From Terriglobus albidus (lineage in GTDB: Bacteria > Acidobacteriota > Terriglobia > Terriglobales > Acidobacteriaceae), in contig NZ_CP042806.1 of assembly GCF_008000815.1 (NCBI RefSeq), positions 2,604,001 to 2,668,000 on the forward strand: DNA of 64,000 nucleotides, in the 5' to 3' direction. A program made the translations under genes and the position numbers. Under the pieces are notes generated by a model. The model saw only the letters and a program-made list of their open reading frames with translations. It was not told the origin of the DNA and made no database searches. Below are positions 22,155 through 41,504 of this stretch, piece after piece. Numbering within the stretch: position 1 is the first letter of the stretch; the number at the start of each line of letters is the position of its first letter.

Positions 22155-22269
22155 AGGGCATTTTCCTGTAAGTGTAGTGGAGGGCTTGTGCATCTATGGG
22201 CGTTTTCCTCAATGAAAACGCCCCCTGCACGCCCCTTCCGGAATACCCAGCAACAGGAAAAATGCTCCA
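22155..22269 (+). repeat. Interspersed hairpin repeat, copy A
   Basis: About 115 bases. The ends form an imperfect terminal inverted repeat (GGGCATTTTCCTGT at the left, ACAGGAAAAATGCTCC at the right). The centre is a perfect 10-bp stem GGGCGTTTTC / GAAAACGCCC (22198-22223, loop CTCAAT). The right half contains TACCCAGCAACAGGAAAA, shared with the other copies. Copies B (31875), C (33648) and D (41391, opposite orientation) have the same architecture. Copy A is the only one not touching a stop codon. Confidence 0.85.
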
Positions 22270-22382
22270 GACAGACCCCCGGCCGCATTTTAGCGACTTC
22301 GCGAGATCCATCTTCTGTTCTTCAGCTAAGCTTTTGAGGCGTATCAACTCCGCCAGATTTTGTGCCAGGAAGAAGATTCATC

Positions 22383-23432
22383 ATGCTGAAGTTCAGAGTT
22401 CCTGTTTTCGCCGGGATGCTGCTTGCCGCCTCCATGGGAAATGCCACCGCGCAGACAAACGACCTTAAGTTTTTGAATGACAATCGTTCCATGCTGGATG
22501 CCCATAACTGCTATCCCTACGAGGGCCAATGGCAGGACCGCGTCAGCCGCGCCCTGAACTCGGGTTTCCCGGTATCCATCGAGCAGGACCTGGCCTGGTA
22601 TTCCGACCCGGCGACGGGCAAAGGACGCGTCGTTGTTTCGCACACTCCGAAGACAACCGGAACGGAACCGACGCTCAAGGCTTATTTCTTCGAACAGGTG
22701 AAGCCGGTTGTCGAGAAGATCCTCAAAGAAAACAAGCAGAACGAATGGCCGCTCATTGTGTTGCACTTCGATTTCAAGGACAATCAGCCGGCGTTGCATG
22801 AAGCCGTGTGGAATCTGCTCGGTGAGTACGAGCCTTGGCTGTCGACGGCGGTAAAGACCCCGGATCCGCATCAGCTTTCGCCCATTCAGAAGAAGCCGAT
22901 TCTCGTCATTACGGAAGACAACGACGCGCAGGAGAACGCCTTCTTCGATCGCGTGCCGGTGGGTGCAAAACTGCGGATCTTCGGTTCGGCACATAGCGCT
23001 TCCCATCCTGAGAATCTTTCCCGTGCGGAGCTAGCCCATTGGGAAGCGACCACTTCACCCGCGAATCTACTGACTGAGACTCCGACGAACTATCGCCGCT
23101 GGTGGAATAACTCCTGGGCTGTGGTCGAAGAGGGAGGGCAGGCGAACGCCGGTGAGTGGACTGCGCAGGATGACAAGCGGCTGCGCGAGATCGTCGACCA
23201 TGCTCATCGCATGGGATTCTGGATCCGCTTCTACACGCTCGATGGCTTTGATCAGCAGAAGAACCAGGGATGGGGCGCCAGTTATAATTTCGGATCTCGC
23301 GAAGCAGTTCTTCCACGCTGGAAGGCCGCCATCAGTGCAGGCGTGAACTTCGTTGCGACCGATCAGTATGAAGACTTCGCCACAATGGTTCCGCAGATAG
23401 AGAAGTCATTGCGGCCGGGAGCCATCCACTAA
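22383..23432 (+). CDS. Secreted PLC-like phosphodiesterase
   Basis: Exported protein of 349 residues with a TIM-barrel pattern like phosphatidylinositol-specific phospholipase C and glycerophosphodiesterases. A signal peptide covers 1-24 (VFAGMLLAASMGNATAQ). Likely active-site residues are His41 in LDAHNCYPYEG, Glu67 and Asp69 in VSIEQDLAW, and His87 in VVVSHTPK, which match the H...E.D...H pattern of the superfamily. HRMGFWIRFYTLDG and AGVNFVATDQYEDF close the barrel. The ATG at 22383 is chosen because it begins the signal peptide and AGGAAGAAG lies upstream; a GTG 21 bases earlier would spoil the signal. It stands alone, downstream of repeat A. Substrate unknown. Confidence 0.75.
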   Translation: MLKFRVPVFAGMLLAASMGNATAQTNDLKFLNDNRSMLDAHNCYPYEGQWQDRVSRALNSGFPVSIEQDLAWYSDPATGKGRVVVSHTPKTTGTEPTLKAYFFEQVKPVVEKILKENKQNEWPLIVLHFDFKDNQPALHEAVWNLLGEYEPWLSTAVKTPDPHQLSPIQKKPILVITEDNDAQENAFFDRVPVGAKLRIFGSAHSASHPENLSRAELAHWEATTSPANLLTETPTNYRRWWNNSWAVVEEGGQANAGEWTAQDDKRLREIVDHAHRMGFWIRFYTLDGFDQQKNQGWGASYNFGSREAVLPRWKAAISAGVNFVATDQYEDFATMVPQIEKSLRPGAIH

Positions 23433-23669
23433 ACCTCCAAGTCGGATGGCTTGCCTTCGTGTTTTCATTTTGAGAGGGCACTTCACGACGCGACTCGCCA
23501 GAAGGAAGATCCGCTGCGACTCGCGTTTCAGTTCAGCCAGCTGCGACTACCGGTGGCCCCTGGTCGTCATAGCATCTGCGTATGCGGCTCAGCGTTTGCT
23601 GCAACTACCTCAAAAATCGAGCCAAAAATCTGGCAAGCAGCAGTTTAGAGTTGGATTTATAGTCCAGCT

Positions 23670-24764
23670 ATGCGTCCGTCAGAGAAAACCATCCTTCTTG
23701 TCAGTGTAGCAACCCTCTATGGAGGCGCCGAGGCGTATTATGTGAAGCTGGCAAAAATTCTGCAGCTTCAATTCAAGGTAGTTGCAGTTGTCTGCTGCGA
23801 GCGTTTACGGGACGAACTGGTTGGCCACGGCATCGACACCGTCTTGGCCGAGATTGGTACACGCTGGATAGGACCGCGCCGTTATTTGACAGCCTTTGCA
23901 GCATGTCGAAAGATGAAGGCGCACTATGCCCCCCGAGTGGCGCATTTGAATGGCCAGCCAGAGTCGTATCTGGCTTTGTTTCTGCGCCTGCTAGGTATGC
24001 GCTTGTTGACCACCCGGCACACTCCGTTCACCGATCTATATCTGCGCGAAGGTTCGCGGTTGCCAGTGTTTTTCAAGCGATTCATGGTATTGTTTTCGCT
24101 GCGTCTCTGCCACGCTACGGTATGTGTATCCAAATTGCTACAGGAGCAGCTTGGCCAGTATCTTGCATCCAGCAAGCTGGTATATCTGCCTACATGGGTG
24201 AGCGATAAATTTCTTGAACGTGGCATAAGGCCTATGCCTTCCGATCCACTGAAAGTGTTGTTTGTGGGTCGAGTTGTACGCAACAAAGGGATCTTTACCG
24301 CTATTGAAACTGCACGCCGTTGCCCCTGGCTCCAGTTAACTGTAGTGGGCGATGGCGACGACTTGCCAGTGGCGCGAGAAAAAGCTCGGGGACTCAACGT
24401 ATTCTTTGCAGGATTTCAACGCGACTGTCGGCCGATGTATCGTGCTGCCGATCTATTTTTGTTTCCGTCGCCAGAAGGATTTGAAGGTCTGCCGCAGGTG
24501 TTGCTGGAGGCTATGGCCCAGGAGCTTCCATGTCTGGCTGCCGACATACATTCTGTTCTTGAAATTGCCGGCCCGGACGGCGTCGTTGCTACGTACAAGC
24601 AGGGTGATGGCGATGCGCTGGTAGCCCAACTGGAGAAGTTCCGCCGCGATCCTCAGAGATTGTTAGAGCTAGGGCAAGCTGGTAGGCTTGAGGTTGAGCG
24701 GCATTATACGGTTGCGTCTGTTGCCAGCGGTTATCTGCAGATATTTAACCTGGCATTCCTATAA
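23670..24764 (+). CDS. Family 4 glycosyltransferase
   Basis: GT-B glycosyltransferase of 364 residues, first gene of the second polysaccharide cluster. It opens with ILLVSVATLYGGAEAYYVKLA, the usual glycine-rich acceptor-side loop. The donor domain has LKVLFVGRVVRNKGIFTAIE (about 194-213), LTVVGDGDDLP, VFFAGFQRDCRPMYRAADLFLFPSPEGFEGLPQVLLEAMAQELP, with the E-x7-E pair at Glu272 and Glu280. The product is expected to add one sugar to the growing lipid-linked repeat unit in the cytoplasm. The preceding 237 bases hold no gene and probably contain the promoter of the plus-strand operon that runs to 31278. Donor sugar unknown. Confidence 0.9.
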   Translation: MRPSEKTILLVSVATLYGGAEAYYVKLAKILQLQFKVVAVVCCERLRDELVGHGIDTVLAEIGTRWIGPRRYLTAFAACRKMKAHYAPRVAHLNGQPESYLALFLRLLGMRLLTTRHTPFTDLYLREGSRLPVFFKRFMVLFSLRLCHATVCVSKLLQEQLGQYLASSKLVYLPTWVSDKFLERGIRPMPSDPLKVLFVGRVVRNKGIFTAIETARRCPWLQLTVVGDGDDLPVAREKARGLNVFFAGFQRDCRPMYRAADLFLFPSPEGFEGLPQVLLEAMAQELPCLAADIHSVLEIAGPDGVVATYKQGDGDALVAQLEKFRRDPQRLLELGQAGRLEVERHYTVASVASGYLQIFNLAFL

Positions 24765-24886
24765 ATCGTGTATTTCGCAACCTCTGCATCCACGGGCATT
24801 CTCCTTCTGGTTGTCGAGAGGTTCATCAATTGGCAAGGTGTAATCCCTGCTCATTGAGTTCATCTGCTAGAACTGGAGTTTCTCGT

Positions 24887-26335
24887 TTGACCGTTGCTGA
24901 TCCCCATGTTCACTTGGCGCGCAAAGCTGCTCGTGGTGCCATCGCATTAGGCATTCGCCAGTTGCTGGCACACGGGAGCAATGTGTTGGGAGGCGTGTTA
25001 CTAGCCCGCCTGCTGACACCGGGACAGTTTGGCTTCTTCGCGCTAGTCACGCTCTTCCTTACGTTTTTGAATATTTTTGGCGGCACTGGCTTCGCGGGGA
25101 ATCTGATCCGCGTACCAGAAGAGCCGGGACTGCGCACCTATCGGGTGATCTTCACAGGGCAGCAAATTCTAGTCGGTTCGCTCTGTACCGCGATTGCGTT
25201 TGCGGCGCCTTGGATTGCCTCTCTTTATCATCTGGCCGATCACGGGACTACCTTTTTCCGGTTAACTGCGCTCTCGCTGTTTTTCACCTCGCTGATGGTG
25301 ATACCGCAGGTACGAATGGAGCGGGAGCTCGAGTTCGATAAACTGGCGCTTATTGAAGTGTCGCAGGCGGTTAGCTTTAATCTCACTACTGTTCTGCTGG
25401 CATGGAAGGGATTCGGAATTCTCTCTTTCGCCGTTGGCATGATCGTCCGATCCTGTCTCGGGGCCATTCTGGCAAATCTGATCTCGCCTTGGAAGACCGG
25501 ATTCCAATGGGATTGGCCCTTGTTACGTGCCAACGTGCACTATGGTGTTGCACTGCAGACAGGCCAGGTTTTGGCCATGGCCAAAGACAGCATCACGCCT
25601 CTGTTTGTAGGGCTGTACTTGGGAAGCACACAGATGGGGTATGCCACCTGGGCTATGACATTTGCCAGCTTTCCCATCATGATTCTAATGCCTCTGCAGC
25701 GGCTGTATCTGCCCTTCTACGCGCGGTTGCAGCATGCCCCAGAGGCACTTGCACATTACCTGAGACACACATTCCTGCTAGTGAACGGCATCGCCGCACC
25801 GTTATCGGTGATCTGTGTGGCACTGGCACATCCCATCACGCGGTTGGTTTTTGGCGAGAAGTGGGTTGTGGCGATTCCACTGTTCTTCTGCTTCTCGTTT
25901 GCCAATCTATTCGGTCCCAGCGTTACGCCGATCCTTGGCCTTTTCAATGCCCTTGGAAAATCGCATACCACCATGCAAGTCATTCTGGCTGTGATGATAA
26001 TGACCTGGATATTCGGTGTGCCGCTGATGATTCATTTTGGGCTGATGGGATTCGGCTTCACGATTGTTTGCACACAGTTTGTGAATATATGGCTCTACTG
26101 GTTTGTGAAGAAGCTGGTCCCCGTCCGACCATTCGCTTCATACTGGCCTGCATGGCCCTTGAGCTTCGCTATCGGGCTGGGTTTGTTTGCGATTGAGTCG
26201 CAATTTCCAGCACGCAACCTCGTCGTTCTACTTTCCTATGGAGCAGTGGGACTTATTTGTTACCTAGGCATCTTCGCAACATTCTTTCAAAATCGTGTAC
26301 GGGTTGCTCTGCAGTTGCTCAGGAAGAATGCCTGA
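24887..26335 (+). CDS. Wzx-like flippase of the second cluster
   Basis: Membrane protein of about 482 residues of the MOP superfamily (lipopolysaccharide/oligosaccharide flippase), translocating the lipid-linked repeat unit. Characteristic features are AARGAIALGIRQLLAHGSNVLGGVLLARLLTPGQFGFFALV at the N-terminus and ITPLFVGLYLGSTQMGYATWAMTFASFPIMI in the middle, with about fourteen hydrophobic segments overall. I prefer the TTG at 24887 because GGAG lies 8 bases upstream; the open frame goes back to another TTG at 24830, which would add 19 residues that do not look like part of the family. It is a different subgroup from the flippase at 9742. Confidence 0.87.
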   Translation: MTVADPHVHLARKAARGAIALGIRQLLAHGSNVLGGVLLARLLTPGQFGFFALVTLFLTFLNIFGGTGFAGNLIRVPEEPGLRTYRVIFTGQQILVGSLCTAIAFAAPWIASLYHLADHGTTFFRLTALSLFFTSLMVIPQVRMERELEFDKLALIEVSQAVSFNLTTVLLAWKGFGILSFAVGMIVRSCLGAILANLISPWKTGFQWDWPLLRANVHYGVALQTGQVLAMAKDSITPLFVGLYLGSTQMGYATWAMTFASFPIMILMPLQRLYLPFYARLQHAPEALAHYLRHTFLLVNGIAAPLSVICVALAHPITRLVFGEKWVVAIPLFFCFSFANLFGPSVTPILGLFNALGKSHTTMQVILAVMIMTWIFGVPLMIHFGLMGFGFTIVCTQFVNIWLYWFVKKLVPVRPFASYWPAWPLSFAIGLGLFAIESQFPARNLVVLLSYGAVGLICYLGIFATFFQNRVRVALQLLRKNA

Positions 26336-26392
26336 AGAGGTTTCTTTGCTGAGGGTTCGAGTTTTCAGGTCTAAAAAGAGGACGTATTCTCC

Positions 26393-27400
26393 ATGCCGCA
26401 AGAATTGATTTCAAATCCATCTCAGCCAGGTTCGAGTACAACGTCTAAGCCTCGCGTCTCAGTCATCATCGTCACCTACCGTTCGACACACGAATTACCA
26501 GCCTGCATTGATAGCCTGATGTTGCAGAATGTGCCACTGGAAATCTTTTTGGTCGATAACGCATCTCCGGATGCTACGCCGCAGATGGTGTTGGATTACG
26601 CAGCGCGGAACAGCAATATCCACGCCATATTGAACAACGAAAACATCGGTCTGGCGGCGGCCAACAACTGCCCTCTCGGTCAGTGCCGCGGTGAGTACAT
26701 TCTGATCCTCAATCCAGATACGGTGTTGCCGGAGAATTGCCTTGCACAGCTGGAGAATTATCTGAATGCGCATACCGATGTTGGCATTGTTGGCCCCAAG
26801 AATCTCTATGAGGATGGGTCGCCACTGCTCAGCTATAATCGAGCCTGGGGTTTCTGGCAGATTATTGTCTGGCGCATACTGCCCAATCGCATTCCGCGCG
26901 TGCTTTGGGATCGCTATTCGAGCTATAAGAATCAGGATGTACTGGTGGTCTCTGGCTCTTGTCTGCTGATCCGTACAGCGATCTTCGAGCAGATTCGCGG
27001 ATACGATCCTGAGTATTTCCTCACCTATGATGACGTGGTAGATTTATGCATCCGCACCCGCAATGCGGGCCATCGGGTAGTGTTTCTGGGTGACGTAGAA
27101 ATGTATCATCTTCTCGGCCGAAGCGGCGCGCAGGTTCCCTTCATCGGCGTTTGGGAAGGAAATCGCTGCACGGTATATCACTTCCTGAAGCATAAGGGCC
27201 TGATCTCTGCGCTTCTGATCGCTGGAATACTGATTCTTGCCTGTTCCTTTCGCATGGCGATAGCCGGGCTGTTGTATCCGTTCAGCAAACGCTACCGGAA
27301 TGTTTTCCGTGTATACGCCAAAGTCGTTTGGTATATGTTCGTGAAAACTCCTCTATTGGCAAGGAACCGCTATTTCAAGACGCTTTCCTCGAGCACTTAA
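26393..27400 (+). CDS. Family 2 glycosyltransferase, rhamnosyltransferase-like
   Basis: GT-A protein of 335 residues. Motifs: VSVIIVTYRSTHELPACIDSL, EIFLVDNASPDATPQMV, NENIGLAAANNCPL, and the metal-binding ILNPDTVLPENCL. VSGSCLLIRTAIFEQIRGYDPEYFLTYDDVVDLCIR is the acceptor/base region found in rhamnosyl- and related transferases. A hydrophobic stretch near the C-terminus (LISALLIAGILILACSF) suggests membrane association. ATG at 26393, 57 bases after the flippase gene, in the same direction as the rest of the second cluster. The sugar is not determined by sequence. Confidence 0.9.
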   Translation: MPQELISNPSQPGSSTTSKPRVSVIIVTYRSTHELPACIDSLMLQNVPLEIFLVDNASPDATPQMVLDYAARNSNIHAILNNENIGLAAANNCPLGQCRGEYILILNPDTVLPENCLAQLENYLNAHTDVGIVGPKNLYEDGSPLLSYNRAWGFWQIIVWRILPNRIPRVLWDRYSSYKNQDVLVVSGSCLLIRTAIFEQIRGYDPEYFLTYDDVVDLCIRTRNAGHRVVFLGDVEMYHLLGRSGAQVPFIGVWEGNRCTVYHFLKHKGLISALLIAGILILACSFRMAIAGLLYPFSKRYRNVFRVYAKVVWYMFVKTPLLARNRYFKTLSSST

Positions 27401-27459
27401 ATGATGCACTCATGTGCAGCAGATGCAATGCGTCAAAAGGATTTGATGGAGCAACGTTG

Positions 27460-28683
27460 ATGGAAACTGAGCAAACAGCATCGCACACAAGTGTGCAGAG
27501 CGATGGGATTGATCTGACGGACATTCTGTGCTTCCTGTTTGAATTCCGGCGTCAGATTGTGGTAGGTACCTGCATCGCCTTTGTGGCGGGTGTCATTACA
27601 GCATTCTTTATACTCAAACCGGTTTTTACTGCAACCACCATAATCTTGCCGCCGCAGCAGGATCACACAGCCAATAATCTGTTGGTTGGTCAGTTAGGAG
27701 CACTGGGAGGCTTGGGCGGCGCCACTTCGGCCTTTGGCTTGAAGAATCCTGCTGACATGTACGTGGGCATCCTCGGCAGCCGTGAAATCGCGGATCATAT
27801 AGTCAGCCGCTTCCATTTAATGGACGTCTATCGCAAGAAAATGCGGCTGGATGCACGCAAAATGCTGCGCAGTAACTCAGATTTCGAAGCTGCAAAGGAT
27901 GGCCTGATCTACATCAACGTAAAGGACCACGATCCACAGCGTGCAGCTGCATTGGCCAATGCCTATGTCGACGAACTGCATGATGCCAACACACGCCTGG
28001 CTATTTCGCAGGCTTCCCAGCGCAGGCTGTTTTACGATAACAGGCTGGCAGAGGAGAAAAAGGCGCTTGTCGCAGCCGAAGATGATCTGAAGCAGACTCA
28101 GGAGCGCACCGGTCTGGTCCAGTTAAGCGGCCAGGCTGAGATGACAATTCGCAATATCGCAAGTATTCAGGCGCAGATTGCAGCACGCGAAGTTGAACTG
28201 AGCCGAGTTCGGACGTATGCCACTGACGAGAATCCCGAGGCAGAGCGACTGCGGGAAGAGATTGCAACTGAGCGAGCACAGCTGGCAAGGCTCCAGGATT
28301 CTGAACCGTCTCCTACTCCAGGCAACACGCAGGTTCCGGCAGCTAAGGTTCCCGCAATCGGCCTGGACTATTTGCGCAAGCTGCGTGAGGAACGCACCCA
28401 CGAGGAGCTGTACGTATTAATGACAAAGCAACGCGAGATGGCTAGTCTGGAAGAGGCTAAAAGCGCGCCTGTCATTCAGGTAGTGGATCACGCTGAGGTG
28501 CCCGAACGTAAGTCAGGTCCCGTGCGCACTCTGATTGTGCTTTCATGTACGATCGCCGGTTTCGTGCTTACCTGCTGTGGTGTGATTGCGCGCAACCTTC
28601 TTCGCAAAGCGATTGGAAACGACTTACGGAGCCGTCTTGCAGCGATCCGCTTGAAGAATACTCAAAAACTTCAGACTTCGTAA
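27460..28683 (+). CDS. Wzz-type chain-length determinant without kinase domain
   Basis: Polysaccharide co-polymerase of 407 residues. A short cytoplasmic head (to about 33) is followed by a first membrane segment (IVVGTCIAFVAGVITAFFIL) and the Wzz domain (VFTATTIILPPQQ). Then comes a Gly/Ala-rich stretch (LVGQLGALGGLGGATSAFGL), common in this family, a periplasmic coiled coil (about 190-290), a GNVR-like region, the conserved VVDHAEVPERKSGPVR, and a second membrane segment (TLIVLSCTIAGFVLTCCGV). It ends soon after, so it carries no tyrosine-kinase module. The ATG at 27460 is chosen because GGAG stands upstream and the first membrane segment follows at the usual distance; the frame extends back into the preceding gene. 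Confidence 0.9.
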   Translation: METEQTASHTSVQSDGIDLTDILCFLFEFRRQIVVGTCIAFVAGVITAFFILKPVFTATTIILPPQQDHTANNLLVGQLGALGGLGGATSAFGLKNPADMYVGILGSREIADHIVSRFHLMDVYRKKMRLDARKMLRSNSDFEAAKDGLIYINVKDHDPQRAAALANAYVDELHDANTRLAISQASQRRLFYDNRLAEEKKALVAAEDDLKQTQERTGLVQLSGQAEMTIRNIASIQAQIAAREVELSRVRTYATDENPEAERLREEIATERAQLARLQDSEPSPTPGNTQVPAAKVPAIGLDYLRKLREERTHEELYVLMTKQREMASLEEAKSAPVIQVVDHAEVPERKSGPVRTLIVLSCTIAGFVLTCCGVIARNLLRKAIGNDLRSRLAAIRLKNTQKLQTS

Positions 28684-28710
28684 GAATCTGGCTTCGGGAA
28701 GGAACTCGGG

Positions 28711-29967: not shown

Positions 29968-30189
29968 CTTCAGCGATGATCGCATCGAACTGTTCACCGA
30001 AAGCTGCGTCTTTTTTGCACGCTCACCTTGGTCCAGGTCGTCGAGCAATGCGAAATTTGACTACATCATTTTCGATATAAAATTGTACTAACGGGACTTT
30101 CTACTGGCCGCATCCGTTCGGTCACGTTAGACGGACGAGAAGGTTCCTCCATTGTCTGTTTCACGGCAGTATCGGTTTGGAGCTTGTAG

Positions 30190-31396: not shown

Positions 31397-31748
31397 TGGT
31401 GGAGGCGGCGGGAGTCGAACCCGCGTCCGAAACTACTGTCGACGAAGAGCTTTCATGCTTTTTCCTGTTCTATATCTCGTAACGAGCGCTAAGAACGGAC
31501 AAAGATACGCTCGAAACTAGCCTGATCGATCTCACCCTCTGCGTCCAGGCGGAACGCTTTGGGCCAGCCTACTGTGCGACGACCGGTATGGGCCCATAGG
31601 CGAAGCCCAAGCGGTCGGCTACTTAGTTAATTAAGCAGCAAGAGCCAGGTTGTTGTTGGCACTTATAGTTTTTGTGATCGATTACGGGTGTTCACACCCC
31701 GGCATGCCTCTCAGCCGCACGCAATCCCGTCGAAACCGTGACGCCCCC
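31397..31748 (-). ncRNA. ssrA: tmRNA (ssrA)
   Basis: Transfer-messenger RNA that rescues stalled ribosomes and tags the nascent chain for proteolysis. The 5' end GGGGGCG pairs with CGCCTCC before the encoded ACCA at the 3' end (7-bp acceptor stem with one G-U). The T arm is GCGGG-TTCGACT-CCCGC. Next to the 5' end is the conserved tmRNA stretch CACGGTTTCGACGGGATT. The tag frame GCC-AAC-AAC-AAC-CTG-GCT-CTT-GCT-GCT-TAA (31660 down to 31631) encodes ANNNLALAA, ending in the ALAA degron. Length about 352 nt, normal for the family. One-piece form, not permuted. Confidence 0.97.
31631..31660 (-). other. tmRNA proteolysis-tag reading frame
   Basis: Nine codons plus TAA: A-N-N-N-L-A-L-A-A. The C-terminal LAA is the ClpXP-type recognition end known from other bacteria. 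Several in-frame or near stop codons follow (TTAATTAACTAAGTAG), a usual safety arrangement. Confidence 0.9.
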
Positions 31749-31832: not shown

Positions 31833-31874
31833 CATCACTCCTCAGCTATTGATTTTACCACTTTTCTTCGCCCT

Positions 31875-31990
31875 TAAAGCTTTTCCCTGTAGGTGGGATG
31901 TAAGGCTTCCGCATCTATGGTCGTTTTCCGCAACGAGAACGCCGCTGCACGCCTCTTTCGGGATACCCAGCAACAGGGAAAATGCCCTTA
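31875..31990 (+). repeat. Interspersed hairpin repeat, copy B
   Basis: Same architecture as copies A, C and D. The right end GGGAAAATGCCCTTA is the inverted partner of the left end TTAAAGCTTTTCCC. The central stem is imperfect here (TCGTTTTCCGCAACGAGAACG). The last three bases on the plus strand (31988-31990) are the stop codon TAA of the minus-strand gene that ends there. Confidence 0.85.
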
Positions 31991-32428: not shown

Positions 32429-32465
32429 AAGGAAAGATCGATCTCTGAGGGGTTAGACGGCAGGC

Positions 32466-32503: not shown

Positions 32504-32527
32504 GGAGGCCAGTGACGCAACTTGTTT

Positions 32528-33164: not shown

Positions 33165-33344
33165 AACCAGAACCCCTTTCGGTTCCCTGCAGAGGCCAAC
33201 TTTCATTTGACAGGCAGTTATGTGCCTGTATTCTTGCACCAAACAAGGTGCAGCCGGTACTTCCCGGCTGTGCCCGCCGCACTTCCCCGAAACAGCAAGC
33301 GAGGCTAGCCAAAGGTACGTTGGAACAACGGAAAGAGGCAGGCA

Positions 33345-33614: not shown

Positions 33615-33647
33615 CGCCCCTCAATTCCAATTCTCAGCTCTCCGGCT

Positions 33648-33757
33648 GAGCCATTTTCTCTGTAGGGCAGTGGGCTTGTGAATCTATGGGCGTTTTCCTC
33701 AATGAAAACGCCGTTGCACGCTCCTCCCGGGATACCCAGCAACAGGAAAATGCTCTA
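33648..33757 (+). repeat. Interspersed hairpin repeat, copy C
   Basis: About 110 bases. The left end is GAGCCATTTTCTCTG and the right end CAGGAAAATGCTCTA. The central stem GGGCGTTTTC / GAAAACGCC (from 33688, loop CTCAAT) is identical to copy A over its whole length. The right terminus, read on the minus strand, begins TAGAGCATTTTCC, and its first three bases are the stop codon of the HtrA-like gene. Confidence 0.88.
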
Positions 33758-35179
33758 GCCCGGAGGCACGACGACATACGACAGGTTTCCATCGCGCTCA
33801 ATCTGCAGCACCAGGGACTCGCGATTTGGAATCTGAGCCAGCTCGCGGCGTAGTGTCTCAACCGAAGTGACAGGCTTTCCGTTTACGGCATGAATCACGT
33901 CATGCGGGCGCAGGCTGCTTTCGGCGACACGCAGTGCGCTTGAACGAGCAACAACCATCACCCCCTGCGGACTGCGGATGGGATTCCACTCATTTGGCGT
34001 ATCGGGATCGACCGTCACGCCGAAGATCTCCAGCCGAGGAATCAGGTTGCGTCCAAAACTAATGTCCGAGGTCAGGGAGCGGGCACGGGAACCAGCACGA
34101 TCTGGCTCGACCGTAAGATTCAGGATCTTGTCGCCACGCGCGATTGTAATGGGAACCTGCTTCTTCGGCTCCAGTGCGGAGATCGCCTGCGTGTAGTTAA
34201 CGATCGACGTGATCTTCTTGCCGTTTACTTCCTGGACAATATCTCCCGGAAGAATTCCGGCGCGCTCGCCACTGCCTGCCGGCCACACATCTTCCACCAG
34301 AACGCCCTGCGTCCCGGTCAGCCCCAGTCCGCGCGTCAGATCGCGTGACAGCGTATGTGTCGTAATCGAGAGCGTGGACCGCGTGACGTGGCCACTTTTC
34401 CGGATGGCGTTGAACACGGTGCGGGCCGTATCTGCGGGGATCGCCAGGGCAATCCCCTCATTACCGCCGCTTTCGGAATAGATCAAGGTATTGATGCCGA
34501 GAAGACGGCCGCGGACATCGACCAGCGGCCCGCCGGAGTTACCGGGGTTCACCGCCGCATCCGTCTGGATCCACAACCTGGGATCGTCCGGTGAGGACTG
34601 CCGGCGGACTGCGGAGACGATACCCATGGTGACCGAGCGTTCAAATCCGAAGGGGCTTCCGAAGGCAATCGCAACCTGGCCCTGGTGTGCCGGGGGAAGG
34701 TGGGTAATGTCCAGAAAGGCGAGCTCTTCACCCTCCGGAGCATTAATCTTCAGGACTGCCAGATCGGTGTCTTCATCCAGGCCAACACGGGTCGCGGGTA
34801 GAACGCGGAGTTTGCCTGAGACCATGCGAACCTCGGCGCGCAGGCTTGCGCTTCCGGCGATGACGTGAGCATTGGTCAGAATGTAGCCATCGTCGGAGAC
34901 CAGTACGCCGGACCCCTGAGCGGTGCCGGCCGTGACCAGACCCGTATCGGGCAGGTTGCTATTGCTGCTATTTGCCGTCGGGTTGATCGGTGTGCTGTCC
35001 TCGTGGTCGCCGACGTAGACCTGCGCTGTAATCCGCACAACGGTTGGCATAACCCGCGAGGAAAGTGCCTCAAGATCGTCGGAAAACTGTACCAGAGGCG
35101 ACTTCGAGGCGAGGGCCTGTGCATGCGCCGTAGAAAAGGGCAACAGAAGAAAGATGGCCAGGGATGCGCGGGAACGCAT
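33755..35179 (-). CDS. HtrA/DegP-like serine protease with two PDZ domains
   Basis: Periplasmic protein-quality-control protease of about 474 residues. A signal peptide covers 1-20 (LAIFLLLPFSTAHAQ). The trypsin-like domain carries the full triad: His105 in LTNAHVI, Asp139 in EDTDLAVLK, and Ser215 in NPGNSGGPL. The oxyanion and activation segments look normal (AIAFGSPFGFERSVTMGIVSAV). Two PDZ domains follow (about 295-375, GVLVEDVWPAGSGERAGILPGDIVQEVNGK, and about 415-470, SLRPHDVIHAVNGKPV). The ATG at 35179 begins the signal peptide; the longer frame to 35323 lacks one. The stop codon is supplied by repeat copy C. Confidence 0.92.
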   Translation of the reverse strand: MRSRASLAIFLLLPFSTAHAQALASKSPLVQFSDDLEALSSRVMPTVVRITAQVYVGDHEDSTPINPTANSSNSNLPDTGLVTAGTAQGSGVLVSDDGYILTNAHVIAGSASLRAEVRMVSGKLRVLPATRVGLDEDTDLAVLKINAPEGEELAFLDITHLPPAHQGQVAIAFGSPFGFERSVTMGIVSAVRRQSSPDDPRLWIQTDAAVNPGNSGGPLVDVRGRLLGINTLIYSESGGNEGIALAIPADTARTVFNAIRKSGHVTRSTLSITTHTLSRDLTRGLGLTGTQGVLVEDVWPAGSGERAGILPGDIVQEVNGKKITSIVNYTQAISALEPKKQVPITIARGDKILNLTVEPDRAGSRARSLTSDISFGRNLIPRLEIFGVTVDPDTPNEWNPIRSPQGVMVVARSSALRVAESSLRPHDVIHAVNGKPVTSVETLRRELAQIPNRESLVLQIERDGNLSYVVVPPG

Positions 35180-35243
35180 GCACCAACGGTAGCAGGTGAC
35201 ACGGTGTAGCGGGAGTGAAATGTTGCGCGACGACCGTGTGGCC

Positions 35244-36362
35244 TTAGCGCTTCGAGGGGATCGGTTTCCTGGGAAAGTCGGCGGGGTTGAGTTTCCCGAT
35301 ACGCCCCTTTGGTCCCACAACAAAGGGAAGCGAGAGCGCGTTCCAGTCGTTACTCTGCTCGATATCGGTGCTCACCGGCTGCCAGATCTTTCCGTTGTCA
35401 TACGAAATGTCTGTGCCGTTCGGGCCGACAGTGAGAAAGGCTTGCAGGCGGTTCGACCAGGCGACCGAACTGCGATAGCCGTGCGGGGGCTTTGTCGCTG
35501 GGGTCCACGTCTTGCCATAATCCGCAGACCACGCTGCAGTCTTTACCGGTGATTCTGGCGTTTTATAGTCGCCGCCAACAGCTACGAGCGTTTTATCCGG
35601 ACGGAAGGCCAGTGAAAAGATACCCGCGGTGGAGACTCCATGGGCCATCGGAACCTCGACCTTGTCGGTGAACTCGCGGCATGGTCTGCACGTGGCTTTG
35701 TTCTCCTCGCGAAGGCGGTAGACATAGGCGTGTTCGGGAATATCACCAGCCCACCAGCGCGAGTACTTCCAGCCGGGCTCTTGTACCGCTTTGTTCAAAA
35801 CCAAGAGGGTTGAGTTGCTGGCAGCGAAGCTGGAGGTTCCGCGATCCACCTCACGATTCGAAAGAGACATTTCCAGCTCTGGCTCTGCATCGTCGAGTGC
35901 GCGAACCTCCAGCAGCACGCTCTTACCGTTAATGGAATCTCCCATTACCCAGGCGTGATCGCTGGAGTCACTGTAGAGCGCATCCCAAAAGCCTTCCGGC
36001 TCCGTGTTCGTCATTGCCAGTTTCCAGTGTTTGCATCCATCACTGGTTTTATAGATCCTAGATGCGTCTCCCTTGCCGCTGGACATCACAATGGCCGTCT
36101 TGTCGTCGAATGCCTGAATTCCACGGAAGTCCAGCTTCTCTGCGTCCGGAGGGACGGTACACGCCAGCCAGTGTTCGCCTCCGTCAACCGTGCGCAGTAC
36201 AGTGCCATTCGTGCCGGATGCCCATGCAACCTTATCGCTCACGGCGTGAATACCACGGAAGCTGGCGGTGGAGTTAGACTGCTGCAGCGTGAACTGGGCG
36301 GAGGCTGTGGCCGTAAGAAGCGCGAAAACGAGCGTAAGGCGCATGAATAGCGTAAGGCGCAT
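35244..36362 (-). CDS. Secreted Ycf48-like / BNR-repeat beta-propeller protein
   Basis: Exported protein of 372 residues resembling photosystem-II-assembly-factor (Ycf48/HCF136)-like and sialidase-type propellers common in non-photosynthetic bacteria. Signal peptide MRLTLVFALLTATASAQ. Repeated blades end in Asp-box-like motifs: VLRTVDGGEHWLAC, IYKTSDGCKHWKLA, AAWSADYGKTWTPA, DISYDNGKIWQPV. Role unknown; such propellers usually bind partners. Two tandem starts exist: an 18-base in-frame duplication gives MRLTLF-MRLTLV, so translation may begin at 36362 or 36344. The HtrA-like gene starts 64 bases downstream on the same strand and may be co-transcribed. Confidence 0.8.
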   Translation of the reverse strand: MRLTLFMRLTLVFALLTATASAQFTLQQSNSTASFRGIHAVSDKVAWASGTNGTVLRTVDGGEHWLACTVPPDAEKLDFRGIQAFDDKTAIVMSSGKGDASRIYKTSDGCKHWKLAMTNTEPEGFWDALYSDSSDHAWVMGDSINGKSVLLEVRALDDAEPELEMSLSNREVDRGTSSFAASNSTLLVLNKAVQEPGWKYSRWWAGDIPEHAYVYRLREENKATCRPCREFTDKVEVPMAHGVSTAGIFSLAFRPDKTLVAVGGDYKTPESPVKTAAWSADYGKTWTPATKPPHGYRSSVAWSNRLQAFLTVGPNGTDISYDNGKIWQPVSTDIEQSNDWNALSLPFVVGPKGRIGKLNPADFPRKPIPSKR

Positions 36363-36364
36363 GA
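36331..36364. repeat. 18-base tandem duplication at the propeller gene start
   Basis: The 16-base word AGCGTAAGGCGCATGA occurs at 36331-36346 and 36349-36364 (period 18). Being a multiple of three, the copy adds six in-frame codons and a second start codon. Confidence 0.85.
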
Positions 36365-36401
36365 GCCACGTTAGCAGCAGGTGGGGTCCGCCATCCAGCC
36401 G

Positions 36402-37661
36402 TTACTCGTGCCGCAGTGCCGCAACAGGGTCCAGACGACTTGCGCGCCAGGCAGGTAGAAGGCCCGAGACCAGACCTACAATCGCCAGGATGCCGAAAGA
36501 GATCAGCGCGATCATCAGGTTAGGCCGCAGAATGATGTCGCCTTCGCTGTTCGCCGTCTTGTACATATCCGAGTAAAGCGGCATGGGCGGGATGATATGG
36601 GCGATGGCGATCGCGGCGAGCATTCCGAGCATGCCCGCAAGGAAGGTCAGGGTAAGGCTTTCGAGCAGAAATTGGGCGAGGATATCGCGCCGTCTTGCGC
36701 CGAGCGCCTTCTGCAGCCCGATCTCGCGCGTCCGCTCTGTCACAGAGACCAGCATGATGTTCATGACGCCCACACCGCCAACCCCGAGCGTCATCGCTCC
36801 AATGATGCCCAGTAGCACCTCAAGCGCGGTGGAGAACTGCATGATCTCTCCCGAGTCTTCGATCGTGTCCCACGTGGAGAATGCCTTATCGTCAGCTGGA
36901 TTGAAGTGGTGGCGCGAGGCAAGAATGGCGCGAACAGCACTGGTCGCCTTCTTATGCAACTCTGGCGAGAGCGGTTGATAGACCAGCGACGAGGGATCGC
37001 GGACGTTCTCCAGATCGCGCAGTGTAAAGAAGGGGAGGAAGACGTTCTCGTTGTCGGGACCGTTGTTGGAGGAGTCCTGAATCTTGTTCCGTAAGACGCC
37101 GATGACGGTGAAGGTCTGTCCGTTCACCTGGACGGTCTGACCCACGGGCGGGTATCCGTTGAAGAGCTTTTGCGCGGCATGAGGCCCGAAGATCGCGACC
37201 TTGCGATGCTCTGTGAAATCGTCTGGGGCGAAGTATCGGCCTTCCTCTACAACAAGCCTGCGCATGCCGTCGTACGGGAGCTCGACGGCTTTGACCTGGA
37301 TGTTGACCGCCTTGGCGTTCCACTTAAAACTGTACGACGTGTCGTTCTCAACGGAGAAGGCGCGAATCAGCGGCATCTGTTCACGAACTGCATCGGCGTC
37401 TTCGGCAGTGAGGTGAATCCGCTTGCCGGACCGTTCCCCGCCGGCCTGCATGGAGGTCTGCCCGCCCCAGCCCATGATGACGTTGTTGCCGATACCGAGA
37501 AAGCCCATCAGCACGGTCTGACCGAGAGCCGCACCGTAGCTGATTAAGAGGACTACGGTCACCAGGCCCCAGGCGATGCCCAGCATGGTCAGGCCCGAAC
37601 GTAGGCGGTTGCGCAGAAGCGACTGGATGGATTGCTGAACGGTTTCCTTGATCTGCATCAT
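36402..37661 (-). CDS. MacB-like ABC transporter permease
   Basis: Inner-membrane permease of 419 residues of the MacB/FtsX type. A first membrane helix (about 19-45, RSGLTMLGIAWGLVTVVLLISYGAAL) is followed by a large periplasmic MacB_PCD domain (about 50-275) and three C-terminal helices with the FtsX core VGVMNIMLVSVTERTREIGLQKALGARRRDIL. Such permeases couple to a separate ATPase and act in mechanotransmission, efflux or lipoprotein handling rather than classical pumping. No ATPase or periplasmic adaptor gene is adjacent. It is about 28% different in layout from the permease at 38675 only in loops; the overall topology is the same. ATG at 37661 (a second Met follows). Confidence 0.88.
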   Translation of the reverse strand: MMQIKETVQQSIQSLLRNRLRSGLTMLGIAWGLVTVVLLISYGAALGQTVLMGFLGIGNNVIMGWGGQTSMQAGGERSGKRIHLTAEDADAVREQMPLIRAFSVENDTSYSFKWNAKAVNIQVKAVELPYDGMRRLVVEEGRYFAPDDFTEHRKVAIFGPHAAQKLFNGYPPVGQTVQVNGQTFTVIGVLRNKIQDSSNNGPDNENVFLPFFTLRDLENVRDPSSLVYQPLSPELHKKATSAVRAILASRHHFNPADDKAFSTWDTIEDSGEIMQFSTALEVLLGIIGAMTLGVGGVGVMNIMLVSVTERTREIGLQKALGARRRDILAQFLLESLTLTFLAGMLGMLAAIAIAHIIPPMPLYSDMYKTANSEGDIILRPNLMIALISFGILAIVGLVSGLLPAWRASRLDPVAALRHE

Positions 37662-37708
37662 GGCGCGTGATGCAAGATACGCAGATCAGGGGAGGAGAGT
37701 TCCCCCAA

Positions 37709-38656
37709 TCAGGCGGTTACAGAATCAAACGAAAGCGACGGATACCGTTCATCCGCGGTAATCAGTGCTTCAATCGCATCGCGCGAATCGATCGCTCCGC
37801 GAGCACCTACTGCAGTACAGTTGCGGGCTGCCGCGGCGCAGGCGAAATCGAGCTGCCGGGTCAGAGCCCAGCCCTGTAGCATGCCGTAGATAAAGCCTGC
37901 ATGGAAGATGTCACCGGCGCCGGTTGTGTCGACAGCATGGACACGATAAGCAGGCCGATAGCAAAAGCTCTTTCCGTCGAAGGCCAGCACGCCATCTGGC
38001 CCCAGGGTCGCGGCGGCCAGAGTGTTTCCATAACGGCGCTGCATCTTCTGGAGTGCGGTCTCGAGGTCAGGCTCGTTCATCAAGCGGGAGGGGAAGTCGC
38101 GGCTGACGATCAGGTAATCGATGTTGATAAGAAGGTCGTCAATGCCGGGAAACTGAAGATCCAGGTCGGCAACGACGGGAATGTTAGCCTCGCGAGCCCA
38201 CTGGGCCGCCTGCGTCGCGGCCGCTGTGTCCTGCCCATCGACATGGAGTGCGCGGGCGTCGGTGATCCACTCGCGGCGAATCTCCTCCGATTTCAGTGTC
38301 AGCCGATCATCACGACGGACGAGGACCGTGCGTTCGCCACTGGGATCTACCAGAATGAGCGATTGCGGCGAGTGGGCATCAGGTACAGTGACGATTCTGG
38401 TTTCGACGCCGGCATCGGCGAAGGCTCGGTGGTGCAGATCGGCCGCCTGGTCATCGCCCAGCTTGCCGACATAGCGGGTCGTGAGTCCCCAGTTCTGGCA
38501 TGCAACGACAGTGCTGGCGACCTGGCCGCCGGGAAGAACGACGGAGTCGTGATATTCCACCTTGGAGCCAAATACGGGGAAGGTAGGAAGGGTTAGGACG
38601 GTGTCAGTAGCATTCAGGCCAACACCAACCAGGTCGACCTTCCGAGTACTCTCCAT
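37709..38656 (-). CDS. PfkB-family carbohydrate kinase
   Basis: Ribokinase-like sugar or nucleoside kinase of 315 residues. Signature 1 region: LPGGQVASTVVACQNWG (41-57) and RYVGKLGDDQAADLH. Signature 2: VDTTGAGDIFHAGFIYG (242-258) with the catalytic base Asp249 and the anion hole GAGD. PVVADLDLQFPG and DYLIVSRDFPSRL are usual central-strand elements. The substrate cannot be set from sequence. It lies between two MacB-like permeases on the same strand (18 bases downstream of one, 47 bases upstream of the other), so the three may form one transcript, although the functional link is not evident. ATG at 38656. Confidence 0.9.
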   Translation of the reverse strand: MESTRKVDLVGVGLNATDTVLTLPTFPVFGSKVEYHDSVVLPGGQVASTVVACQNWGLTTRYVGKLGDDQAADLHHRAFADAGVETRIVTVPDAHSPQSLILVDPSGERTVLVRRDDRLTLKSEEIRREWITDARALHVDGQDTAAATQAAQWAREANIPVVADLDLQFPGIDDLLINIDYLIVSRDFPSRLMNEPDLETALQKMQRRYGNTLAAATLGPDGVLAFDGKSFCYRPAYRVHAVDTTGAGDIFHAGFIYGMLQGWALTRQLDFACAAAARNCTAVGARGAIDSRDAIEALITADERYPSLSFDSVTA

Positions 38657-38674
38657 CTTCCTAGTGTAAACGCC

Positions 38675-39928
38675 TTACTCGGTTCGGAGGCATTCCATTG
38701 GGCTCAACATCGCGGCCCGGCGGGCAGGATAGGTGCCGGCAAACAGGGTTATCGCGGTAAGTGTGAGCAGGGAAAGCACAACGGCGATCGGCGAAATGAC
38801 CGGGTGTGGCACAAAATCCGGCATGGGGATATAGCGCATCACGACGCAGACACCGGCTCCGAGAAGGAAACCGATGGTGCCGGAGACCAGAGTAATAATG
38901 GCCGATTCGGCCAGGAACTGCCTGTGGATATCGACGGCGCGGGCGCCCAGAGCCTTGCGGACACCGATCTCCCGGGTCCGTTCGGTCACGGCCACCAGCA
39001 TGATGTTCATCACCCCAATGCCGCCCAGGGCAAGGGTCAGCAGGGCTACGGCTCCCAGAAAGATGGTCATGACGCCGAAGATGCGGTCCACGAACTTGGC
39101 GCCCTCCAGGGTGTCCCAGACCCAGAGAGCCTCCTTATCGTCCGGATTGAAGTGGTGGCGCTCGCCCAGAATGCGATAGACCTCTTTAACCGCGGCCTCA
39201 TGCTTGTCGGGAGAGACCGGTTGAACAACGATATCGTTCAGCCAGCCCGGGAAGACTCCTTTACGCGCCGGCGGGAAGTCACGCTCCATCGACGAGTAGG
39301 GGACGAAGAGCTGTGTGCCGTCGCGGCCGGAGCCATACGAGCCGTTTTGCTTCTTCTTTTCCAGGATGCCGATCACCACGTAGGGATAGCCCGCGATGGA
39401 GATAATCTGCCCGACGGCCTGGTTGGAGCGAAAGAGCTGCTGCTTGGTGTCATCGCCAAGTAGGACCACGCGCGCGCCGTCGGCCTCGTCTCGTTCGGTC
39501 ATCAGGCGGCCCTCTGAGACCTTGATGGAGCGGAAGGCCTGATACTCCGGCCATACACCGCGCACAGCGCGGTTAGCAGCGTTGTACTGCGAAACCTCGT
39601 TGACGGTCCGATTGATCTCTGGGGAGACGTGCTGGACCAGCGCTGCCTGATCCCGGATGGCGACCGCGTCGCCATACTCCAGCCGGATATCGCGTCCAGC
39701 AACGTAACCGCCGGCCTGTGCTCCGGTCTTGCCGCCCCAGATGATGGCGATATCGGTTCCCAATCCCTTCATACGCTCATGCTGGTCTTTACTGAAGCCG
39801 ATGCCTAACCCAACCAGCAGAATCACTGAGGTGATGCCCCACACGATGCCGAACATGGTGAGAAAGCTGCGAAGTTTGGTAGCCCACAGGGCGGCGAGCG
39901 TTTGCAGGAAGATCTCGCGAATCGGCAT
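38675..39928 (-). CDS. MacB-like ABC transporter permease
   Basis: Second MacB/FtsX-type permease (417 residues). First helix RSFLTMFGIVWGITSVILLVGLGIGF, MacB_PCD periplasmic domain up to about 285, then the FtsX core IGVMNIMLVAVTERTREIGVRKALGARAVDIHRQFLAESAII and two further helices. It is a paralogue of the permease at 36402, sharing RHHFNPDDKEA and the TERTREIG core. The ATG at 39928 (MPIREIFLQTL) is chosen: a longer frame to 39991 would run into the start of the divergent GH125 gene and adds an unlikely N-terminus. No ATPase gene is present nearby. Confidence 0.88.
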   Translation of the reverse strand: MPIREIFLQTLAALWATKLRSFLTMFGIVWGITSVILLVGLGIGFSKDQHERMKGLGTDIAIIWGGKTGAQAGGYVAGRDIRLEYGDAVAIRDQAALVQHVSPEINRTVNEVSQYNAANRAVRGVWPEYQAFRSIKVSEGRLMTERDEADGARVVLLGDDTKQQLFRSNQAVGQIISIAGYPYVVIGILEKKKQNGSYGSGRDGTQLFVPYSSMERDFPPARKGVFPGWLNDIVVQPVSPDKHEAAVKEVYRILGERHHFNPDDKEALWVWDTLEGAKFVDRIFGVMTIFLGAVALLTLALGGIGVMNIMLVAVTERTREIGVRKALGARAVDIHRQFLAESAIITLVSGTIGFLLGAGVCVVMRYIPMPDFVPHPVISPIAVVLSLLTLTAITLFAGTYPARRAAMLSPMECLRTE

Positions 39929-39985
39929 GCCAGATAGGTACGATGTCCATGGCTGGAAAGTTCCTTCTGGAGCAGAATCAGGAAT

Positions 39986-41392
39986 ATGCATTGGACACGC
40001 AGGGAAGTAGTGAAGCTGGGCACGTTGGCCCTTGCCGGGAAGAGCGTTGGGCTGCAGGCAGAGGTGCTGGATCGCAGGCCGGCGCCGGCGGACCGCAAGT
40101 TTACCTCGGAGGGCGTTGAGCGCTATATCGCCGAGACCGCGAAGCGGATCAACGATCCGGAGCTGCGGCAGCTCTTCGTCAACTGCTTCCCCAACACACT
40201 GGATACAACGGTGCAGCCGGGGACCTCGGATGGTAAGCCCGATACGGTCGTACTGACCGGTGATATCCCCGCGATGTGGCTGCGGGATTCTTCCGCCCAG
40301 GTCTGGCCCTATGTTCCGCTGGCAAAACAGGACGAGAAACTACGTGCGCTGCTTGAAGGCGTCATCCGCCGCCAGGCCCGCTGCCTCCTGATCGATCCCT
40401 ATGCCAATGCCTTTATGGCGAACCTGGATGACCCGCCGCTGGAGTGGGGCCGTACTGACCAGACTGAGATGAAACGCGGCGTAGGCGAGCGCAAGTATGA
40501 GCTCGACTCGTTGTGCTATCCGATCCGCCTCAGCTATGGCTATTGGAAGGCGACAGGAGATACGAAGCCATTTGATAGCGCGTGGACGGAAGCCATGCGC
40601 ACCGTGGTGAGCACCATGAGGGTACAGCAGCGCAAGAATGGCGATGGACCATATACCTTCCTGCGTAAGTCAGATCGCTCGACTGAGACGCTGCCACGAG
40701 CTGGTAAAGGCAATCCGATCAAGCCGGTGGGCCTCATCTTCTCCGGTTTCCGCCCAAGCGACGACGCATGTGTCTTTCCGTTTCTTGTGCCCTCGAATCT
40801 CTTCGCGGTGACCTCGCTGCGCCAACTCGCCGAGATGATGAACACGATCACGCATGACAGCGCGACAGCGCAGGAGGCGCAGAGCCTCGCCACCGAGGTC
40901 GAAGTTGCCCTGCGTCAATACGCGGTGGCGAAGCTCGACACCGGTACGATCTGGGCTTTTGAGGTTGACGGTTTCGGCAGCCAACTGCTGATGGATGATG
41001 CCAACGTGCCCAGCCTGCTGGCGCTGCCGTATCTCAACGCATCGCCGGATGCGGCGATGTATGCGCGCACGCGCGCCTTTGTGTGGAGCGAGCGCAATCC
41101 CTGGTTCTTCCGTGGATCGGCAGGCGAGGGAATCGGCGGACCACATATCGGCGACGACATGATCTGGCCGATGTCGCAGACCATCTATGCGCTGACCAGT
41201 ACAAAGAAGGAAGAGGCTGGACCCGCGCTGACGATGTTGAAGACGGCAGCCCGCGCGACTGGATTCATCCACGAGAGCTACTTCAAGAGCGATCCTGCAA
41301 AGTTCACCCGCTCATGGTTCGCCTGGGCGAATACCTTATTTGGCGAGATGGTGGCGCACATGGTCTACAACCATCCTGATTGGATCGCTTAG
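39986..41392 (+). CDS. GH125 exo-alpha-1,6-mannosidase with Tat signal
   Basis: Metal-independent exo-acting alpha-mannosidase family protein of 468 residues, releasing mannose from alpha-1,6-linked mannosides. The N-terminus WTRREVVKLGTLALAG is a twin-arginine signal, so the enzyme is probably exported folded. Family signatures: GDIPAMWLRDSSAQVWPY (about 92-109), IDPYANAF, ERKYELDSLCYPIRLSYGYW, FSGFRPSDDACVFPFLVPSNLFA, and FRGSAGEGIGGPHIGDDMIWPMSQTIYALTS. It is nearly full length for the family. ATG at 39986. The stop codon TAG at 41390-41392 is fused with the first bases of repeat copy D. Together with the GH26 enzyme this points to mannose-containing glycans. Confidence 0.92.
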   Translation: MHWTRREVVKLGTLALAGKSVGLQAEVLDRRPAPADRKFTSEGVERYIAETAKRINDPELRQLFVNCFPNTLDTTVQPGTSDGKPDTVVLTGDIPAMWLRDSSAQVWPYVPLAKQDEKLRALLEGVIRRQARCLLIDPYANAFMANLDDPPLEWGRTDQTEMKRGVGERKYELDSLCYPIRLSYGYWKATGDTKPFDSAWTEAMRTVVSTMRVQQRKNGDGPYTFLRKSDRSTETLPRAGKGNPIKPVGLIFSGFRPSDDACVFPFLVPSNLFAVTSLRQLAEMMNTITHDSATAQEAQSLATEVEVALRQYAVAKLDTGTIWAFEVDGFGSQLLMDDANVPSLLALPYLNASPDAAMYARTRAFVWSERNPWFFRGSAGEGIGGPHIGDDMIWPMSQTIYALTSTKKEEAGPALTMLKTAARATGFIHESYFKSDPAKFTRSWFAWANTLFGEMVAHMVYNHPDWIA

Positions 41393-41504
41393 AGCATTTT
41401 CCCTGTTGCTGGGTATCCCGGAGGAAGTGTGCAGCGGCGTTTTCATTGCGGAAAACGCCTATAGATGTGAAAAGCGCTACATCACACCCGCAGGGAAATG
41501 CTCT
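41391..41504 (-). repeat. Interspersed hairpin repeat, copy D (opposite orientation)
   Basis: About 114 bases with the best-preserved terminal inverted repeats: AGAGCATTTTCCCTG at the left and CAGGGAAATGCTCT at the right (14-15 bp, one base different in length). The central stem GGCGTTTTC / GAAAACGCC is interrupted by ATTGCG. Orientation is inverted relative to A, B and C. Its left end completes the stop codon of the GH125 gene; its right end is 25 bases before tRNA-Leu. Confidence 0.9.

Follow-up and report, generated by a model that had tools for sequence, protein, structure and literature searches.

Introduction

In Streptococcus pneumoniae, RUP is a 107-bp repeat that has been attributed to IS630-Spn1 and occurs in 108 intergenic copies (PMC2229807), while BOX gives the stop codon in 36 of 58 overlapping coding sequences (PMC3049150); elements of the Tc1/mariner/IS630 group are recognised by a duplicated TA in combination with inverted termini (PMC2170065). 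Here we describe a repeat found in four copies, A to D, in a window of 64,000 nucleotides from the soil acidobacterium Terriglobus albidus (NZ_CP042806.1, positions 2,604,001 to 2,668,000). The element is 112 bp long, with 14-bp inverted ends GAGCATTTTCCCTG, TA on its flanks and a 9-bp central hairpin, and we conclude with high confidence that it is a non-autonomous miniature inverted-repeat transposable element (MITE) of the IS630/Tc1-mariner type. About 40% of its insertions lie exactly within a stop codon, where TA-A or TA-G has become TA-GAGC and a TAG is rebuilt; many genes of these bacteria accordingly end in a stop codon that belongs to transposon sequence. This placement was absent from a preliminary description of the window. 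The family is new; its kind is already known, and it is the landing pattern that is unusual.

RUP resembles the Terriglobus element in size, in the TA at its ends, in its TA targets and in having ends like those of an IS630 transposon (PMC2229807). It differs in host and context, and the Terriglobus element has a conserved central hairpin, a measured excess at stop codons and no partner insertion sequence found in the same genome; the two are set apart by description. BOX is the nearest precedent for a repeat that provides the stop codon of many genes, but it is modular and longer, its ends have been likened to ISSpn2 rather than to IS630, and no comparison with TA close to stops was noticed in its description. 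The Correia/NEMIS and ERIC elements are also small, with inverted ends and TA at the termini (PMC2229807), but they belong to other hosts and were compared by description.

Results and Discussion

A Family of About 300 Copies with Paired Ends

The four copies were verified at the positions of the preliminary description, to within 1-2 bases. The 15-base ends quoted there match the family consensus, although no copy among A to D carries both ends exact. The central stem had been considered kept in A and C and partly decayed in B and D; we found it whole in A, C and also D, and in B the decay consists of one mismatch and one wobble.

An alignment of A to D with 29 more copies from the same genome gives the consensus TA-GAGCATTTTCCCTG ... 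GGCGTTTTC-CGCAAT-GAAAACGCC ... TACCCAGCAACAGGGAAAATGCTC-TA, and in 184 distinct copies 96.5% of the end cells of the terminal inverted repeats (14 bp plus TA) are paired. The 14-mer TACCCAGCAACAGG occurs 143 times (67+76) in the genome of 6,405,582 bases, and the same word reversed 0+0 times. A covariance model built on 33 copies matched all 150 places scored out of 2930 loose candidates, the weakest with an E value of 2.7e-26.

A systematic sample of 40 evenly spaced 20-kb stretches, together with the window (864 kb in all), was scanned with the covariance model and gave 96 matches on both strands, which were collapsed by hand to 51 places. The family consensus is fitted at a score of at least 90 by 42 of these, 38 of them outside the window; of the nine places left out, six belong to a sister family (described below), and the others are a 47-bp derivative, a further partial copy and a weak match (E 0.07). 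Thirty-eight copies in the 800 kb of the systematic sample correspond to about 300 per 6.4-Mb genome, in agreement with the hundreds that had been expected from the density in the window. The median identity to the consensus is 91%, and the copies are therefore not recent.

Insertion into TA

Comparison of the flanks among the fetched loci (G and L numbers are our handles for genomes and loci) identified 22 different sites for which a relative has an empty allele; two of these sites are neighbouring tandem copies (L137, L153). The flanks overlap by exactly 2 bases at 12 of the 22 sites, and in 10 of these 12 the empty allele is TA. One TA thus becomes two TA on insertion, which is the kind of target-site duplication that the preliminary description had suggested looking for. 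At the remaining ten sites the offsets are -1, -3, -5, +1 or +13 bases. TA is still present on both sides at 69 of 116 sites in relatives, and in a nested insertion (L105) a sister-family element splits a copy of the main family at CATC-TA-TGGG, again with TA on both sides.

Window loci are among the polymorphic ones: the locus of copy C is empty in G015, and two sites that are empty here are filled in relatives, one in G008 and G012 and the other in G008 (Table 1). Where a filled allele is common to several genomes, the orientation is identical in 44 of 44 comparisons, reciprocals included; independent insertion at the same site was rejected on this ground, shared descent being simpler. Mobility is deduced from presence/absence polymorphism between species.

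The TA duplication in the empty-allele comparison and the IS630-type outer ends, TA-GAGCATTTTC, are the reasons for assigning the element to the IS630-type MITEs; with the presence or absence of copies between related genomes, they bear out the MITE-like layout first noticed in the window. Head-to-tail tandem elements that share one TA were also seen, in L106 (G000 ~1892381-1892606), L137 and L153.

Stop Codons as Landing Sites

Genes were called with a simple hexamer caller, and the element was removed in silico to score the empty site. The 51 sampled insertions, sister-family and partial copies included, comprise 19 in stop codons, 26 between genes and 6 in genes. With 31 more own-genome copies the set grew to 82, from which 3 duplicates and 9 sites without TA on either side were dropped, and the 70 sites left are 32 stop, 34 intergenic and 4 in genes. 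Among the nine TA-less sites, 6 are intergenic, 3 in genes and 0 at a stop; if they are included, the stop to intergenic ratio is 32:40. Control TA sites of the same 864 kb number 436 at stops, 4260 between genes and 17965 in genes. TAA or TAG ends 459 of 648 called genes.

Relative to these controls, the own-genome insertions prefer stop over intergenic TA with odds of 9.2 (32:34 against 436:4260, p 6e-16). The odds are 7.0 within Y-TA-R targets (p 4e-7), and 4.8 when stops are compared with TA at most 25 nt downstream (32 per 436 against 7 per 461, p 5e-5). In the relatives, stops account for 44 of 116 sites (104 of the 115 fetched loci used), and in both sets pooled for 75 of 181. When a regression on the pooled set takes into account the context of four bases on either side, stops are favoured over TA 1-25 nt downstream with odds of 5.2 (bootstrap median 3.2, 2.0-6.8); the pooled set counts sites shared by descent repeatedly, which makes its p-values too small, a problem that does not affect the own-genome figures. 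The TA targets are themselves biased, C being preferred at -3 and G scarce at -1, in a mirror-symmetric manner, and an R-TA-Y context is found at 0 of 34 intergenic insertions as against 1112 of 4260 control TA (p 5e-5).

Of the 22 empty alleles, 8 have a stop precisely at the TA (a tandem copy among them), 2 others have one no more than one base away, and 2 have one 3-4 bases off. At those 8 to 10 sites the stop was already in the empty allele, and therefore the gene end was not made by the element. The first letter of the element restores the stop and the gene probably survives; landing in stops would be harmless.

Judging by ends and target, the mover would be an IS630 transposase. Such an enzyme, acting in trans and now absent or unrecognised in this genome, would bind the inverted ends, cut the element out and paste it into TA, preferring a palindromic context (C at -3, not G at -1, mirrored) and duplicating the TA. 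Since the element starts with G, the TA of TAA or TAG would become TAG with the gene end unmoved, and this G, together with the Y-TA-R preference, would favour stop codons as harmless landing sites.

Target Choice or Survivorship

The contrast that separates targeting from selection is that between the TA of the stop codon and a TA a few bases later. If insertion was near-random among TA and selection then cleared genes, promoters and ribosome-binding sites, sparing the harmless stop insertions, few copies should be left in genes, and this is what we see in the own genome (4 of the 70 scored sites and 3 of the 9 dropped TA-less sites). It also agrees with this account that coding sequence is visibly kept by a stop insertion and that TA lying over 100 nt beyond a stop are hit less often, per TA, than nearer ones. 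However, a TA at most 25 nt past a stop should be as harmless, yet it carries about 5 times fewer insertions per TA, and the odds rise to 6.3 when only those downstream sites are used that have no start closer than 60 nt ahead (the stop class being unrestricted). Nor does the stop share differ between copies nearer to and further from the consensus, either in the relatives (24 of 59 and 20 of 57) or in the own genome (7 of 17 and 7 of 14). We give survivorship a chance that falls a little short of even.

The sharp peak at the stop itself, with no gradient around it, and its persistence after correction for four bases on either side would be accounted for if the transposase or a host partner actively favoured stops, via a longer target motif or through coupling to the termination of translation or transcription. 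L246, an IS630 element with the same type of end, also sits in a stop codon, but it is the only one at a stop among five same-end IS630 elements; no mechanism for such a choice is known, the corrected odds are uncertain (lower bootstrap limit 2.0), and they come from the pooled set with its repeated sites. Active targeting is put forward as a tentative explanation, less likely than not.

IS630 of Shigella reportedly has CTAG as its preferential target (Tenzen et al. 1990; Tenzen and Ohtsubo 1991). The likeness to the Terriglobus MITE lies in the TA target and in the Y-TA-R bias, and CTAG holds a stop on both strands; in contrast, IS630 is autonomous, and the bias of the MITE is weaker and wider. 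Such a preference fits the stop excess, although local context does not remove that excess. A stop-homing bacterial transposition, in which target choice and not later selection places the copies in TAA or TAG and the leading G makes the insertion silent, is a conceivable reading that we hold with reserve. If target choice is responsible, this would be a natural way to insert DNA without harm to genes, by a two-base target and a third base borne by the element, and would show a route by which mobile DNA can multiply to hundreds of copies even though the genome is compact; if selection is responsible, the family is a case of survivorship well resolved at the single-base scale.

Relation to IS630 Transposases and to REP Elements

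DDE_3 transposases are present in 4 of 19 genomes of the genus, with two loci in this genome. The DDE_3 element of G014 ends in TA-GAGCATTTTC...GAAAATGCTC-TA, and its transposase (L113), used as a query, has matches in 37 of 150 genomes of the family, this genome not among them. The ends were scanned at 32 IS630-transposase-like loci, 30 fetched and two earlier ones, and in 5 of them (L113, L235, L236, L246, L251) the end starts with GAGCATTT beside TA on at least one side; those of L246 form a perfect 18-bp pair, and its transposase has one internal stop. The MITE has its outer 9-10 bases in common with IS630 elements from a congener and from other genera in the family, and the inner CCCTG is found in none of the five. 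The outer ends thus match those of an IS630 group, the exact partner being missing. The search for a transposase with the same ends, proposed in the preliminary description, yielded none that matches in this genome and, in relatives, outer ends only. Two IS630-like copies with ends TTGATTCCTG, L116 and L117 (G000 1653857, 6035093), are 99.9% identical; they probably moved recently and are unrelated to the MITE ends.

The alternative of a REP-like element had also been considered. REP and REPIN sequences are moved by RAYT (Y1_Tnp) transposases; no target duplication is expected for them, and they carry a hairpin REP at each end. The Terriglobus family resembles them in its high number of short palindromic, mainly intergenic copies. 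Y1_Tnp genes were found in 4 of 5 genomes searched, which are the four carriers of the element, and none in the element-free G017; a full or partial copy lies at most 1.5 kb from 3 of 8 fetched Y1_Tnp loci. This proximity is not clearly above chance (1.3 expected by density, estimated at one copy per 20 kb), and the MITE differs in its TA target duplication, in IS630-type ends that pair with each other, and in its single central hairpin. A REP/REPIN origin is consequently very hard to sustain, and the REP-like label was not borne out. The earlier statement that the window holds no transposase or REP-associated gene stands for DDE_3 (2 matches) and Y1_Tnp (7), all outside the window, these being the two families tested.

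Several observations weigh against an IS630-type MITE that lands in stop codons. Both DDE_3 loci of this genome have unrelated ends, TTGATTCCTG, and the search of 150 family genomes, with ends scanned at 32 loci, brought up no autonomous element that carries all 14 bp of the end. No stop lies within 6 bases in 10 of the 22 empty alleles. At the locus of copy D, the junction lacks a TA in relative G017, whose gene ends at a TGA three bases on, although T. albidus has TAG at this same TA with no element inserted there. MITEs of this type are not known to need a central hairpin, and its conservation is for this reason unexplained. The lack of a partner transposase in the same genome is no bar to a MITE that has lost its partner, and the IS630-type assignment is retained.

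A comparison of the D locus (window 41390-41520) with L267 and L216 also shows that in T. albidus the element at this locus is flanked on both sides by TAGTTGCGATA, an 11-base duplication in place of TA, while copy D of the window lies in the stop codon; two insertions and one recombination possibly account for the difference at this locus.

Folding and Constraint

The predicted fold is strong, with z -7.0 for the consensus and z -5.9, -2.5, -2.9 and -5.9 for copies A to D. In 182 copies, the terminal repeats show 31 double compensations against 5.4 in shuffles, and the central hairpin slight covariation (3 against 0.2), counts that are inflated by related copies. A second helix proposed by RNAalifold was discarded, as were the inner helices predicted in the minimum-energy fold, since neither shows covariation above shuffles.

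Divergence from the consensus in the systematic sample is 1.5% in the central stem, 6.2% in the ends and 13.4% in the spacer, the stem being 9 times below the spacer. In 31 pairs of same-site copies, of which several share a copy and three from the D locus are possibly not strictly orthologous, differences amount to 19 of 551 positions in the stem (3.4%), 40 of 832 in the ends (4.8%), 200 of 1391 in the spacer (14.4%) and 499 of 6807 in the flanks (7.3%); the copies of the relatives were fetched by a right-end word, which biases the right end and leaves the central stem unbiased. Among 54 stem pairs changed between same-site copies, 1 is a double compensation, 13 are one-sided changes with pairing kept, and 40 are unpaired in one copy. 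These mostly unpaired changes fit a symmetry at the level of the transposon better than selection on an RNA in place.

The selection on structure suggested earlier is thus upheld in part, in that stems and ends diverge less and the terminal repeats covary, but not in the compensation of changed stem pairs (1 of 54). We conclude that the ends and the central hairpin are under constraint, for which mobility of the source copies is the simplest reason, and some constraint in place is possible; the hairpin may have served mobility or the maintenance of copies.

That the repeat is now used by the host, as an RNA or as a terminator at gene ends, would agree with the strong predicted fold of the consensus and of A to D, and with the fact that same-site stems and ends change less than spacers and flanks. 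Two of the 26 terminator-like hits of the region (19.3 expected by chance) use the T-run at an element end, near 22267 and 33650. However, inspection by eye finds no T-run in the consensus after the element's own stems, covariation is lacking in helices other than the ends and the central hairpin, double compensation is confined to a single stem pair, and gene conversion between copies would likewise concentrate differences in the spacers. We regard a host role of this kind as improbable.

Distribution and Other Repeats

The exact 15-base end was found in 5 of 61 genomes searched (122 occurrences here, 242 in G008, 102 in G012, 103 in G015 and 1 in G032), an exact-word search that leaves room for diverged copies in other genomes. 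The single end in G032, from another genus, was rejected since its surrounding sequence is unrelated and no element is present, and the four true carriers all belong to one genus, represented in the search by 19 genomes. Scanning 84,980 species for an exact 24-mer gave 115 stretches, and the 80 among the matches listed come from Terriglobus albidus DSM 26559, the metagenome-assembled genomes Bin6.3 and SH_60_12, and, for one stretch, a third such genome. The family occurs in T. albidus and a small number of its close relatives, and appears to be stranded within a single Terriglobus clade. Spread by phages or plasmids was considered and rejected, as copy D has no match in plasmids or phages and viral contigs contain no exact 24-mer. 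No account of this family, of stop-codon-directed MITEs or of such an excess at stops was recognised in the literature listings examined, in which subscription journals were mostly not covered, which makes this weak evidence of absence.

The sister MITE family, with ends GAGCATTTCTCCTAA, has six copies in the sample (L050, L046, L047:10939, L041, L057:7514, L038) of the same layout. Its central hairpin, GCCGTTTTC/GAAAACGGC, matches that of the main family with one stem pair swapped, two of the six copies (L046, L038) are lengthened by an extra hairpin, and its exact end occurs in the same four of 61 genomes.

Other repeats were noticed alongside. In L101 (G000 352500-355500), another MITE-like element, ~250 bp long with inverted ends GAGGGTGTGTCATCAAACTC, splits a copy of the main family near 353745-354117, and L059 near 18450 is apparently cut by the same GAGGGTGTGTCATCAAACTC-ended family. 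A further repeat of ~306 bp (L063:9552-9857) has many copies in G008, G012 and G015.

Copies and Neighbouring Features in the Window

Stop codons make up 5 of the 6 known insertion sites of the window region (B, C, D and the two filled in relatives), B and the site at 35244 being judged by hand. The right junction of copy C provides the TAG stop of a trypsin-like/PDZ protease gene on the minus strand, and the junction of copy D at 41390-41392 that of a GH125 alpha-mannosidase gene. The right end of copy B abuts, as determined by hand, the TAA (31988-31990, minus strand) of a PCYCGC-family gene; this end is shifted by one base from the consensus, and the copy was not scored as a stop and was counted as in-gene.

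Table 1. Element copies, their central hairpins and empty target sites in the window.
Feature	Positions	Strand	Remarks
Copy A with flanking TA/CA	22154..22269	+	TA-free limits by junctions 22156-22267; between two divergently read genes, off any stop codon
Central hairpin of copy A	22199..22222	+	intact
Copy B	31874..31990	+	TA-free limits ~31876-31987; central stem partly decayed; also in relative G015
Copy C	33647..33757	+	TA-free limits 33649-33755; empty allele with TAA in G015
Central hairpin of copy C	33689..33712	+	intact
Empty target, TAA stop of gene 35244-36344	35244..35246	-	element here in G008 (alignment read); far junction without TA
Empty target, TAA stop of MacB/FtsX-type gene	38675..38677	-	element in same TA in G008 and G012, stop is TAG
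Copy D	41390..41505	-	TA-free limits 41392-41503, reversed; adjoins tRNA gene
Central hairpin of copy D	41436..41459	-	9-bp stem GGCGTTTTC / GAAAACGCC, intact

A search of the window against Rfam at the gathering threshold gave the tmRNA and tRNA only, and the stretch that holds copies B and C gave no match up to E 1. The tmRNA gene lies at 31397-31748, ~125 bases from copy B. Just after the tRNA, ACATTTTCCCTGCGCGTGATGTGAGTA at 41622-41650 resembles the left end of the element and is a possible remnant.

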